Below the pieces are notes generated by a model that did not search any database, was not told the origin of the DNA, and saw only the letters and a list, made by a program, of their open reading frames with translations. A program made the translations under genes and the position numbers. A DNA stretch of 57,719 nucleotides, taken from positions 1 through 57,719 of the IMG/VR virus record IMGVR_UViG_3300042922_000732; one strand, 5' to 3'. The stretch is from a virus. How positions within the stretch are numbered: the stretch's first letter is position 1; each line of letters opens with the position of its first letter. This document shows, piece by piece, positions 1 through 57,719 of the stretch.

Positions 1-165
1 ATAAATTATCAACCCCAACAACTTTTAAATCATTAGTTCTTGGTGCTACTGATAAATATCTTATTGAATTTCCCTTACTTCCTGCATATGGATCTACATA
101 TTTTACATTTTCCAAGCCTTTAATTTTCCTTAATTTATGCAACGGGTAATAAGTCGTCATCAATT
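1..165 (-). pseudogene. Distal part of a host gene interrupted by the prophage (attL side)
   Basis: On the minus strand one frame is open across this whole end, reading roughly TTYYPLHKLRKIKGLENV and on through YVDPYAGSKGNS to the window edge. It has no start or stop of its own here. When the prophage is removed on paper at the 7-bp core, this frame continues without a shift from the open minus-strand frame at 57493-57719, giving a junction that reads LLDTGHAKLMTTYY. I take it as the downstream part of a host protein-coding gene split by integration. I do not recognise the family. The gene's real ends lie outside the window. Confidence 0.75.
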
Positions 166-172
166 TAGCATG
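166..172. other. attL core TAGCATG
   Basis: The 7-bp sequence TAGCATG is shared exactly with 57486-57492, and flanking bases differ on both sides. Left of it lies host coding sequence and right of it lies phage sequence. The right-hand half-site at 179-195 is the inverted partner of the half-site at 57468-57484, as expected when attP is divided between attL and attR. By symmetry of those arms the crossover dinucleotide should be TG at 171-172. Confidence 0.8.
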
Positions 173-445
173 TGCAATGTGAATAAAACTGCAACATTTA
201 AAAAAGTATTTGAAACTACAGAAGAAAGTGTTTCTACATTATATAAAGAACTTCCAGAATACACTACAGCACAAAAAGTTTATAAAGTTAGAATGTTAAA
301 TAATCTCACTCAAAAAGAATTCGCTAATAAGAGTGGGGTTGGATATTCCACAATATGCAAATATGAGACTGGTTATAATACAAGCAAAAATAATATTAAA
401 AAAATATGTAATACATTTAACTTGCCATACGATTATTTTTACTAA
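173..445 (+). pseudogene. Detached 3' end of the phage integrase gene: XRE-type HTH domain
   Basis: An open frame from 137 to 445 runs through attL. Its first 12 codons are host DNA or core and the rest encodes about 90 residues ending in an HTH of the XRE type (LTQKEFANKSGVGYSTICKY). In the excised circle the frame lies exactly in phase with the integrase at 55792: the AGC ATG codons of both cores coincide. It is followed at once by a terminator. I therefore read it as the C-terminal domain of the full-length integrase, cut off by integration, and not as a free-standing repressor. No convincing ribosome site lies before 137, so it is probably silent in the lysogen. The HTH assignment is from visible pattern only. 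Confidence 0.8.
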
Positions 446-446
446 T

Positions 447-484
447 AAAAAACTGGAAATTCTTTTTTGAATTCCAGTTTTTTA
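447..484 (+). terminator. Terminator of the circular-form integrase transcript
   Basis: A strong hairpin (AAAACTGGAA paired with TTCCAGTTTT around a T-rich loop) follows directly after the stop at 445 and runs into T residues. Its position supports the view that the 173-445 segment is the true 3' end of the integrase transcription unit in the phage circle. Confidence 0.75.
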
Positions 485-660
485 TTATCTTCTTTTTTTA
501 ATAATTAAAATTACGCGCTTAGTTTTTTTGTCACTCTCACCACTCATTTGTTATTCGCTCCCCTTATATCTTCCTTTAATTTCCCTTAGGAGGTTGATGC
601 ATAAACGTTTCTTTATGTAAATTATTATATAAAGTTATTCAATATTTGTAAAATAATAAA

Positions 661-53848: not shown

Positions 53849-53959
53849 TTACACTTCTCCTTAAAATAAATTTATTTTGATATTGTATGTATTTTTAAAA
53901 ATTTCAACCTTATCTTAAGCTGTTTTTATAATTTGAGCTTTTCAAAAATTCTAACTAAA

Positions 53960-54199
53960 TCATAATATCCTGTGTTCTTCTGTTACCTTTTCTATCCATC
54001 TATCCAAAGCTCTTCTATCTATAGATGTTCTAGCTCCAACTTTGAAGAAAGGAAAGTCTGTTTTTGGTTTCTCAACAAGCTCTCTTAACTTTTCATGTCC
54101 AATGCCCAGGTAATTGGCTGCTTCTTGGATTGAAAAAGTTATCTTTTCAGGTTTTTCAGTTTTTAGCGCTGCCAATATTTCTTTCAATAATTCTTCCAT
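53960..54199 (-). CDS. Excisionase-family (MerR-like HTH_17) DNA-binding protein
   Basis: A 79-residue protein: ITFSIQEAANYLGIGHEKLR, ELVEKPKTDFPFFKVGARTS and IDRRALDRWIEKV form the winged-helix excisionase pattern. It may be the recombination directionality factor for the serine integrase or a plain regulator; serine integrase RDFs vary widely, so this is a candidate only. AAGGAG ribosome site. Its upstream region is one copy of a duplicated element. Confidence 0.75.
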   Translation of the reverse strand: MEELLKEILAALKTEKPEKITFSIQEAANYLGIGHEKLRELVEKPKTDFPFFKVGARTSIDRRALDRWIEKVTEEHRIL

Positions 54200-54215
54200 G
54201 AAATCAATCTCCTTA

Positions 54216-54282
54216 AAATAAATTTATTGTATTAGTATGTGCATATTGTAAAATTCTAAACTTATTTTAAGTTATGTATTGG
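54216..54282. repeat. Duplicated regulatory segment, copy 1
   Basis: About 65 bp upstream of the excisionase-like gene, nearly the same as 54477-54540. Common blocks are AAATAAATTTATT, TATTAGTATGTGCA and AATTCTAAACTTATTTTAAG. A more diverged version lies at about 53862-53935. Each precedes a leftward small gene, so the element probably holds promoter and operator. Confidence 0.65.
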
Positions 54283-54287
54283 TCTTA

Positions 54288-54462
54288 TCATTTAATATAA
54301 TGATGAGATCTAATTCTTAATTCAAAGTACCTTTTCATCGCTTCGGTTCTCTTTTCTGGATTTAATTCTCTAACTCCACCTTTAAATATTTGTTGAATAT
54401 TAATTATTACTTCTTTAGCTTCTTCTGTTAATTCTTGAGTTTCATTCAATAGTTCTTTCATG
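54288..54462 (-). pseudogene. Small early gene with a frameshift
   Basis: A strong GGAGG site and ATG at 54462 start MKELLNETQELTEE, which hits TAA after about 15 codons. If one base near 54420 is skipped (GAAGAAAGCTAAAG), the frame goes on as AKEVIINIQQIFKGGVRELN, PEKRTEAMKRYFELRIRSHH and ends at 54288, 57 residues in all. Either a mutation, a sequencing error or a +1 shift site; the stop directly at the shift point leaves the last open. Confidence 0.5.
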
Positions 54463-54476
54463 GAATCAACCTCCTT

Positions 54477-54540
54477 AAAATAAATTTATTATATTAGTAT
54501 GTGCACATTGTGGAATTCTAAACTTATTTTAAGTTACTGT
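54477..54540. repeat. Duplicated regulatory segment, copy 2
   Basis: Second copy of the element at 54216-54282, upstream of the frameshifted gene at 54462. The central TGTGCACA is palindromic in this copy. Confidence 0.65.
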
Positions 54541-54684
54541 TTTATATATTATTTGTTACGTCAAAAATTGCAGCAAGGCTATTTTTCTATAGTTAAACTG
54601 AATATAATCGCTTCGAGCTATAAAACGTGATATATAAGTTTTGTTATGTTAATGATTTGATTAAGGCTCTTTAGCCCATTTATC

Positions 54685-55365: not shown

Positions 55366-55414
55366 TATATTTAAATAAAAATAAATTATAATTTATTAAA
55401 GGATGGTTAATATA

Positions 55415-55792
55415 ATGGAAATTAGTACATTAGGTATGAATATTAAGACTTTAAGAGAGAAAAAGGGATGGAGCGTAAACAAATTAAAAGAAATTAGTTC
55501 TGTTGGATATGCAACTCTACATGACATAGAAAGTGGCAAAAGTCAAACAATGAATTCTAAAAGCCTAGAAAAAGTTGCTAGAGCACTTAATACTACAAGT
55601 GATGATCTATTAAATATAGAATCTATAGAGTTTGTAGTTGAAGATATCGCAGAAACTATAGATGCTATTTTTGAATCAGAGGAATTAAAATTAGATGGAA
55701 TAAATTTAAGTGAATACGAAACTGAATTTTTGAAAGACTTCTTCGCCGCAGGAGTAGAGAAAATAAGAAAGAAAAGAGTTGAACAAAAATAA
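55415..55792 (+). CDS. CI-like XRE repressor
   Basis: A 125-residue protein: N-terminal HTH (LGMNIKTLREKKGWSVNKLK, SSVGYATLHDIESGKSQTMN) and a short helical C-terminal part without a LexA-type peptidase, so induction is probably not by self-cleavage. Start at 55415 with AAAGGA about 9 nt upstream; the ATG at 55403 has none. Its stop shares one base with the integrase ATG (TAATG), so repressor and integrase are translated together, an unusual link of immunity and recombination. Confidence 0.85.
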   Translation: MEISTLGMNIKTLREKKGWSVNKLKEISSVGYATLHDIESGKSQTMNSKSLEKVARALNTTSDDLLNIESIEFVVEDIAETIDAIFESEELKLDGINLSEYETEFLKDFFAAGVEKIRKKRVEQK

Positions 55793-57600
55793 TGAACAAA
55801 AGAATTGCGATATATAGTAGAAAATCAAAGTTTACTGGAAAAGGCGATTCGATAGAAAACCAAATTGAAATGTGTAAGGATTACATAGAAAAAAATATAG
55901 GCACAAATACTGAAATAACTGTATATGAGGATGAAGGTTTTAGTGGCGGAAATCTTGATAGACCTAAGTTTAAAAAATTAATGTCTGATATTAAAAATAA
56001 AAAAAACGATATCTTAATATGTTATAGATTAGATCGTATTTCTAGAAATGTTGCAGATTTCTCTTCAACATTAGAATTGCTACAAGCTAATAATTGTGAT
56101 TTTATATCAATAAAAGAACAATTTGACACTAGTACGCCTATGGGAAGAGCAATGATATATATTGCTAGTGTATTTGCTCAATTAGAGCGTGAGACAATAG
56201 CAGAGCGCGTTAAAGATAATATGCTTGAAATGGCAAAAAACGGTCGATGGACTGGCGGAAAAATCCCACTCGGTTTTCATTCTGAAAAAATAAAAGTAAT
56301 CGACGAACAAGGATTAACAAGAGAAACTCCACAATTAATTGTTAATGATGAAGAAATACAATTTGTTAAGTTTCTATATGAAAAATATCTAGAATTAGGA
56401 AGTTTGCATAAATTAGAGGTATATATAACTCAAAATCAAATTAAATCTAGAAATGGCATTCTATATGAAAAATCTTCACTTAAAATAATTTTGCAGAACC
56501 CTATATACGTAAAGGCTAATGAGAATGTTGTAGAATATCTAAAAAATAATAATTGGTCCATTTACGGTGTTGCTGATAATATACATTCTTTATTGACTTA
56601 CAATAAGACAGAACAAACCAAGAAAAATGGAAAGTATACTAAACAAAATAAGCCTCTAGACGAAAGATTCGCAGCTGTAAGCAACATAAAAGGTTTTATT
56701 GATCCACAATTATGGTTAAATGTTCAATATCAGTTTGATAAAAACAGAGATAAATTCCCACGCCTAGGGAAAACACATAATGCTCTTTTGGTTGGAAAGC
56801 TAAAGTGTGGAAAATGTAAAGAATATATGTTAATTCAACACGGCAAAGTATCTGCTGTTACTGGGAAAAAATTATTTTATTATACATGTTCACTTAAAAG
56901 AAAATCTCACAGATCATTATGCAATAATGATAACGCTAAAGCTGATAAAATTGAAAATCTAGTTTTATTATCTCTAAAAAGTTTAGCCTATAAACAAGAT
57001 GAATATTTAAATAATATAAAAAAAGGTTACAAAGAAATGACAAGCCAAAAAGGAATTAAAATAGAATTTCTTTCTCTTAAGCAATCATTAAACGAGAAAA
57101 AAAATCAAATTGATAATTTAGTAAATAAACTTTCCTTTGCTCCCGAAATATCAGATATATTATTAGAAAAAATAAAAACCTTAAAATCAGAATGTATTGA
57201 TATAGAAAGCAAAATACATTCATTAAAATCTAATGAAGACAAAGCAAAATTAGAGTTATTAAATATAGAAATTATTAAACAATTATTAGATAAATGCGCA
57301 AATATAGAACATCTTACTAGAGACGAGCAAAAAGAAATTATTGACACTTTAATTGATGTTGTTTATTGGTATGGCAATGGAGATGATGAAGGCATAAAAA
57401 TTAAATTCATAGGCACAAATGAGGAAGATAGCACTATTGAATATACTGAAGCTGAACTGCAATCGATGTTGCAGTTCAGTTCACCTAGCATGGCCCGTAT
57501 CGAGAAGAATGATATTTTCCGCAAATTCTTTCAAGGCATATTGCTGGCAAACCTTTGTATTAAGCTTGTCATAATTTATATCTTCCTTTGGGACCTTTAA
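55792..57600 (+). CDS. int: Large serine integrase, C-terminus replaced on integration
   Basis: A large serine recombinase of 602 residues as it stands. Catalytic Ser9 lies in YSRKSKFTGKGDSIENQ, with YRLDRISRNVADFSSTLELL and RERVK-type features in the resolvase domain. The recombinase domain follows (TGGKIPLGFHSEK to about 330), then a zinc ribbon (LKCGKCKEYM and YYTCSLKRKSHRSLCNN, about 337-375) and the coiled-coil motif (about 400-490). Codons after the core at 57486-57492 are antisense host DNA and encode a chance tail (RIEKNDIFRKFF...). In the phage circle the frame would pass through the core into the HTH at 173-445, giving 657 residues. Confidence 0.9.
   Translation: MNKRIAIYSRKSKFTGKGDSIENQIEMCKDYIEKNIGTNTEITVYEDEGFSGGNLDRPKFKKLMSDIKNKKNDILICYRLDRISRNVADFSSTLELLQANNCDFISIKEQFDTSTPMGRAMIYIASVFAQLERETIAERVKDNMLEMAKNGRWTGGKIPLGFHSEKIKVIDEQGLTRETPQLIVNDEEIQFVKFLYEKYLELGSLHKLEVYITQNQIKSRNGILYEKSSLKIILQNPIYVKANENVVEYLKNNNWSIYGVADNIHSLLTYNKTEQTKKNGKYTKQNKPLDERFAAVSNIKGFIDPQLWLNVQYQFDKNRDKFPRLGKTHNALLVGKLKCGKCKEYMLIQHGKVSAVTGKKLFYYTCSLKRKSHRSLCNNDNAKADKIENLVLLSLKSLAYKQDEYLNNIKKGYKEMTSQKGIKIEFLSLKQSLNEKKNQIDNLVNKLSFAPEISDILLEKIKTLKSECIDIESKIHSLKSNEDKAKLELLNIEIIKQLLDKCANIEHLTRDEQKEIIDTLIDVVYWYGNGDDEGIKIKFIGTNEEDSTIEYTEAELQSMLQFSSPSMARIEKNDIFRKFFQGILLANLCIKLVIIYIFLWDL
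57452..57492. other. attR: attP left arm and core TAGCATG
   Basis: Core TAGCATG at 57486-57492. The arm GTTGCAGTTCAGTTCAC (57468-57484) is inverted relative to GTGAATAAAACTGCAAC (179-195), 14 of 17 matched, so the joined circle has a dyad attP centred on TG. CTGAACTGCAA at 57452-57462 and TTGCAGTTCAG at 57469-57479 form a further perfect inverted repeat within the integrase gene, so a third copy of the half-site motif lies beside attP. Confidence 0.75.
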
Positions 57601-57719
57601 CACAACAACACCTTTAGTATCTAATTCGTTTCTAATTTCTTCTGACAAACTTTCCTTTGCTAATTTACATGATCCTGAAAATGCTCCTAATATATCATCA
57701 CCTCTTTCACCTTGAATAT
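57493..57719 (-). pseudogene. Proximal part of the host gene interrupted by the prophage (attR side)
   Basis: On the minus strand one frame is open from the window edge: IQGERGDDILGAFSGSCKLA, KESLSEEIRNELDTKGVVVL, KVPKEDINYDKLNTKVCQQY, ALKEFAENIILLDTGHA, then the core. Past the core the prophage adds AGG TGA, so the host protein ends early in the lysogen. Joined to 1-165 the frame is unbroken. The family is not recognised; the sequence looks like a cytoplasmic enzyme with alpha/beta pattern. Confidence 0.75.

Follow-up and report, generated by a model that had tools for sequence, protein, structure and literature searches.

A phage attachment site inside a large serine integrase gene, predicted to exchange a helix-turn-helix tail of the enzyme upon integration

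The IMG/VR record IMGVR_UViG_3300042922_000732 is a prophage (virus) record of 57,719 bases, and its entire length is called the window here. It was found that the phage attachment site (attP) lies inside the large serine integrase gene of this clostridial prophage, where it separates the catalytic part from a Cro/C1-type helix-turn-helix (HTH) tail. Judging from the sequence, attP divides the gene, and integration must replace the tail. Unintegrated DNA would encode an Int-HTH fusion of 657 residues. Integration at attP would strip the tail and leave a tail-less integrase (Int) of 602 residues in the lysogen, and excision would restore the tail. From the architecture and its conservation among relatives, I consider it likely that the fusion is a functional one. 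The features concerned are as follows (ORF, open reading frame; CDS, coding sequence).

55792..57492, plus strand: residues 1-567 of the serine integrase, ending at the attP crossover, with catalytic, recombinase, zinc-ribbon, and coiled-coil regions (Resolvase PF00239, 7.4e-42; Recombinase PF07508, 8.2e-10; Zn_ribbon_recom PF13408, 1.6e-10)
57493..57600, plus strand: 35 antisense host codons ending the lysogen integrase ORF at 602 residues, opposite a minus-strand host ORF whose joined frame is continuous
173..445, plus strand: C-terminal tail of 90 residues and a stop, a linker of about 30 residues and an XRE/HTH_3 domain (HTH_3 1.6e-11 at 173-442; ten homologous tails), part of the integrase in the circle only
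57486..57492, plus strand: attR core TAGCATG, with the candidate crossover dinucleotide TG at 57491-57492
166..172, plus strand: attL core TAGCATG, with the putative crossover TG at 171-172
57460..57492, plus strand: left half of attP (P arm), within the integrase CDS, containing ATGTTGCAGTTCAGTTCA and symmetric with the right half at 16/20 positions
171..203, plus strand: right half of attP (P′ arm), within the HTH CDS, containing TGAATAAAACTGCAACAT
57481..57719, minus strand: upstream part of the disrupted host frame, a GidA-family flavin adenine dinucleotide protein (PF01134, 5e-40 for an intact relative), uninterrupted in relatives
1..172, minus strand: downstream part of the host gene, as indicated by the continuity of the joined host frame

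When the phage ends were joined at TAGCATG, a single frame was obtained, which starts at ATG 55792, passes through AGC 57487, and continues along 173-445 for a total of 657 residues. The junction in the excised circle is predicted to read CACCTAGCATGTGCAATG. The initial annotation had proposed this Int-XRE product, with TAGCATG in frame at both ends, as well as the 602-residue lysogen ORF ending in antisense host codons, and both were confirmed. It had placed the join at the AGC codon; the in-frame protein is as claimed, but the core TG is the preferred crossover point, which leaves the predicted protein unchanged. Reconstruction gave a nearly palindromic attP, ATGTTGCAGTTCAGTTCA-CCTAGCATGTGCAATG-TGAATAAAACTGCAACAT, with TG at the centre (57491-57492 / 171-172) and complementary arm positions at 16/20. 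The enzyme has the Resolvase, Recombinase, and zinc-ribbon domains of a large serine integrase, and its site has the short length, symmetric arms, and common central dinucleotide of that family. The catalytic, recombinase, and zinc domains all lie 5′ of attP, so that integration leaves them whole. The tail belongs to XRE/HTH_3 by score (44.5 bits against a cutoff of 23) and by the fold of the homologous tail of a relative, L003 (SinR/434 Cro). A fold search with this L003 tail returned XRE domains, the nearest including SinR, 434 Cro, and P22 c2, with a root-mean-square deviation of 1.2-1.9 Å. In the predicted structure, the attP-encoded linker is flexible (predicted local distance difference test score, pLDDT, <50 at 542-595), while the HTH has a pLDDT of 76-91. 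The junction region of the window has no slippery run of eight or nine A residues (A8 or A9), and the fusion is straight in frame.

When the host flanks were joined at TAGCATG, an uninterrupted minus-strand frame was obtained. The joined host segment of 132 residues is uninterrupted in about 100 Clostridiaceae genomes (best identity 93% across all 132 residues), and where a genome carries a related prophage, similarity to it stops near residue 80-90. The host gene as a true TrmFO was ruled out by scores far under the NCBIfam cutoff, leaving membership of the GidA superfamily only. A tRNA gene as the bacterial attachment site (attB) was ruled out as well, since the window has none. This GidA-family gene has two attB sites (...GHAKLM... 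and ...GHTEA...), used by different phages (L004 3800-4020; C. magnum L016/L041; such L and G numbers are labels of this study). As a result, one gene holds neighbouring prophages. The HTHs just 3′ of int in L004, L252, and L041 were rejected as fusion candidates because they are part of another prophage next to it in that host gene, and with this origin recognized the L106 and C. magnum cases could be sorted out. Related phages (the window versus L003/L004), with TG or CA as the central dinucleotide, enter one host site in opposite orientations, which is in line with the near symmetry of attP.

Is the fusion found in related phages? Three relatives have int and the HTH in one natural open frame, as the initial annotation had expected of unintegrated relatives: the close relatives L003 and G073 and the distant L130. 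L003 (IMG/VR 2718218017_000006; the same integrase as G137) has an open frame of 667 codons with 62% identity to the window, and the arms of its attP are perfect 15-bp inverted repeats. The probable reason for its intactness is that the 112-kb element around it ends in a different integrase, L010. L002 has almost the same integrase split at attR, where host sequence replaces the last codons after SPST. The unsplit frames of G073 and L130 comprise 616 codons and 703 amino acids, respectively, the latter with about 38% identity to the window integrase. In eight more close relatives (C. magnum L016/L177, C. gallinarum L021/L178, C. cibarium L015/L179, L095/L176, G063, G047, G136, and G145), attP was rebuilt from the attL and attR of one genome, and int was in frame with a homologous tail in 8/8. 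The joins were picked by arm symmetry and the common core, not by the reading frame, except for L015, which was placed by hand. With the window counted, the fusion is in frame in 11/11 testable close relatives. The tail can be aligned from the first post-core residue in ten other phages. Its ratio of nonsynonymous to synonymous substitution rates (dN/dS) is 0.15-0.58, compared with 0.02-0.28 for the catalytic part, and by this measure the tail is under purifying selection. Thus, the fusion is more than chance. In L095, the first start codon of the tail is only at codon 41, inside the HTH, and this tail therefore depends on the integrase start. A second clade, L106 (attL in L004), is in frame too and retains a relic of an A9 run. 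L152, a fusion candidate by coverage, was ruled out, its HTH being 400 nt off behind unrelated sequence. The reversible C-terminal domain swap predicted by the initial annotation is thus backed by the rebuilt sites, the three unsplit genes, and the reconstructed relatives, and the two forms may, as it proposed, differ in DNA binding, control, or stability.

Where the integrases are less closely related (about 40-57% identity), the end of int is in or near a ...KKK-stop on an A9 run just 5′ of attP. The order int-attP-HTH is the same, and the HTH usually lies in the -1 frame, which is open from the run across attP. This layout was found with an intact attP in L161, L264, L014 (the free Terrisporobacter phage TPELB_ph1, from particle-protected DNA), L123 (A8), and L055, and with a rebuilt attP in nine others (G159, C. 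gasigenes L022, G031, L025/G016, G068, L029, L033, L044, and a second C. magnum phage, L041/L218). In a C. beijerinckii-type group (L132/L277), the HTH is at +1 behind A9. For L015, L044, G016, and G068, the automatic join was wrong or ambiguous, and the join was placed manually using the known arm spacing. The HTH frame of L161 extends for 83 codons without ATG, GTG, or TTG. Runs of at least nine A residues occur in the last 45 nt of 22/94 integrase clusters against 0.22 expected from the same genes; the clusters (70% identity) were gathered by similarity to the window and are phylogenetically non-independent, so the figures overstate independence, while the within-gene contrast holds. Lys-Lys-Lys is coded as AAA-AAA-AAA in 20/20 cases in int tails versus 3/55 in gene bodies (Fisher p 2e-15), although AAG accounts for 26% of lysine codons. 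The A8/A9 relatives would reach Int-HTH via slippage on the run, which would set the ratio of short to tailed integrase. In summary, the 30 phages comprise 13 straight fusions (including the window), 14 with the HTH at -1 and A8/A9, one at +1 with A9, and two with a single stop. That different routes would lead to the same Int-HTH product is the strongest argument for the importance of the fusion and of its loss upon integration. A free phage whose integrase ends before the core, which the initial annotation had named as the case against the fusion, exists on paper in TPELB_ph1, but its A9 run opens a -1 frame that reaches into the HTH, and the reading of this HTH as a plain separate gene was overturned.

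The attP reconstruction settled no join for L245/L225, L251/L228, L252/L229, L258/L235, and L260/L238. The HTH was absent from most of the other prophage contig ends examined. Scans for relatives gave no useful new ones with the L014 and L123 queries, and distant ones without a downstream HTH with the L161 query.

Two other features of the window adjoin the fusion.

443..487, plus strand: terminator-like hairpin and U-run directly 3′ of the HTH stop (RNA fold -19.7 kcal/mol, z -8.2)
55403..55792, plus strand: CI/XRE-like gene, whole, whose stop overlaps the integrase start (TAATG)

The strong terminator noted after the HTH by the initial annotation is supported by the hairpin and its folding energy, but it was not among the predictions of a consensus terminator scan. 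The overlap of stop and start suggests, from the gene arrangement, co-expression of the CI-like gene and int, and int would therefore belong to the lysogeny operon. No plus-strand promoter was found ahead of the HTH in the prophage form. Further upstream (53857-54544), three repeats of about 74 nt (family D1) lie upstream of small minus-strand genes.

Some related loci have other arrangements. L296 and L297 (G157:C37 and C21) have five copies of an att half-site with an HTH ORF, each after a similar short fragment resembling a host gene. Unrelated cargo of 3.5-6 kb (radical SAM/bacteriocin genes, ABC transporters, and reductases) lies between the copies. There is no integrase, and the whole resembles a series of cassettes lacking their own integrase that are arrayed at a single site. 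In L184 (C. gasigenes) and L182, the integrase end and the left attP arm are present in attL as a second copy of 70 bp beside the host gene; this odd junction was perhaps left by a deleted tandem prophage. In L071 (3001-4992), a related integrase is in frame with a C-terminus resembling the end of a sporulation sigma factor, which suggests a skin-like element whose integrase may be fused to a host sigK remnant.

How might the tail work? The integrase core would be catalytically sufficient without it; tail-less Int is probably competent because lysogens have no other form and the A9 group makes it by default. The tail would be a state-dependent accessory DNA-binding domain, active only after infection or excision, and would direct Int to a phage operator or to att-flanking DNA as a second DNA contact. 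Int-HTH would favour the establishment of integration, or, in the circular phage, would turn off int or prevent re-integration. The tail-less lysogen form would meanwhile wait for a directionality factor. Any such specific role of the tail is proposed tentatively. In general terms, the HTH tail may be a built-in state sensor that sets the recombination direction or the lysis-lysogeny choice and is switched off by the integrase's own reaction, and the family would keep it either through fusion in frame or through programmed slippage on A9 that carries translation across attP. I regard this proposal as plausible, with a chance a little short of even.

The tail may instead be mainly a transcriptional regulator (Cro-like or an autorepressor) with Int as a dimerisation platform, serving lysis-lysogeny control and not recombination. 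Its XRE fold, with phage and bacterial repressors as the best structural matches, the CI-like gene overlapped by int, and the presence of the fusion only in the non-integrated phage all favour this account. However, no operator was identified, and the account overlaps with that of a state-dependent accessory domain and is inseparable from it by sequence. On its own, it is possible but rather unlikely.

Several points weigh against a functional fusion. L036 (TGA) and L063 (TAG) have one in-frame stop between int and the HTH, so that the fusion is not universal. A separate HTH start is possible in some phages; L014 has an ATG at the core, and L025/G016 has GAGGAGG followed by ATG. The attP join is less certain in L044, L041/L218, and G068, the close relatives are phylogenetically non-independent, and the structure prediction is of modest quality (mean pLDDT 69; predicted template modelling score 0.37). 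If the HTH were an independent lytic-phase or regulatory gene 3′ of int and overlapping it, the key effect of integration would be its separation from the int promoter. The two stops agree with this, as do the separate HTH ORF annotated in TPELB_ph1 with its ATG in attP, the plausible ribosome site of L025/G016, and the lack of a detectable plus-strand promoter before the HTH in the prophage. In contrast, L161 and L095 have no usable start before the HTH, all 11 testable close relatives have the fusion in frame, and selection at the nucleotide level for a terminal A9 run in int would then serve no purpose. An independent HTH gene is therefore improbable. Alternatively, the swap could be a passive by-product, with attP overlapping the int end for module compactness and both forms of Int acting alike. 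Indeed, tail-less Int must function in the lysogen and is made by default in the A9 relatives, so catalysis probably does not need the tail, and the dN/dS of the tail exceeds that of the core. However, persistence as an intact HTH in 30 phages, or maintenance by an A9 slippage site, is not what one would expect of a dispensable tail, and I consider a passive swap very unlikely. Misassigned ends, with the true attP elsewhere, might be suspected from a core of just 7 bp but are almost certainly excluded by the restored host frame matched in about 100 genomes, the attP palindrome, and the identical geometry of naturally intact relatives.

The integrase reaction would change the enzyme's own domain make-up, so that the form of the protein would report the state of the DNA without a regulator. 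This would be a natural and testable feedback switch, and would explain the A9 ends of these integrase genes. It is also suggested that the annotated C-termini of such prophage integrases are host artefacts, which is relevant to their use in genome engineering.

In the textbook view, a serine integrase is a one-way switch, and another factor determines its direction. The Int of Myxococcus phage Mx8 is a tyrosine recombinase, the repressor of mycobacteriophage BPs is altered through a tyrosine integrase, and poly-A programmed slippage is known from transposase- or dnaX-type recoding. The gain and loss of an HTH tail by a serine integrase appear to be undescribed; no description of an HTH tail or slippage in serine integrases was found in the literature searched (subscription papers were outside the search), and the main text of a large serine integrase survey mentions neither frameshifts nor truncated C-termini (PMC10083194). 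The novelty of a split recombinase, as implied by the initial annotation, has to be qualified, since attP inside int is known in Mx8 and in archaeal SSV-type elements (PMC6070905, PMC8371274), but these papers describe no HTH tail. In Mx8 (and Mx9), attP lies within the integrase CDS, and integration creates a new int 3′ end with a changed C-terminus and altered specificity (PMC6070905, which cites Tojo 1996 and Magrini 1999 as the original papers). The window likewise has attP in the integrase CDS and acquires a new C-terminus on integration. However, its enzyme belongs to the large serine integrases, and the part it loses is a DNA-binding domain; that paper describes no HTH tail or slippage for Mx8. 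In the 'suicidal' SSV-type integrases, attP is inside the gene and integration splits it (PMC8371274). The catalytic domain of these tyrosine enzymes is separated and the gene dies, whereas in the window the catalytic enzyme stays whole and the accessory tail alone is exchanged. In the integration-dependent immunity of BPs, attP is in the repressor gene (PMC4557955), and integration changes the C-terminus of the product. Both systems couple the state of a gene to integration via an attP inside it, but the window alters the recombinase, and its CI-like gene (55403-55792) is whole. Serine integrase, HTH tail, and slippage are not combined in the Mx8, SSV-type, or BPs-type systems. The window integrase shares the domain order, symmetric attP, and single crossover at a central dinucleotide with the large serine integrases A118, phiC31, SPbeta, and TP901-1, but has an HTH tail and an attP within the gene, neither of which was seen among the solved members from the fold search. 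As in poly-A slippage genes, the A8/A9 run of the more distant relatives would give a short and an extended protein. In contrast to such genes, the extended frame of these relatives crosses attP and so exists in the circle only, while the window has a straight fusion.
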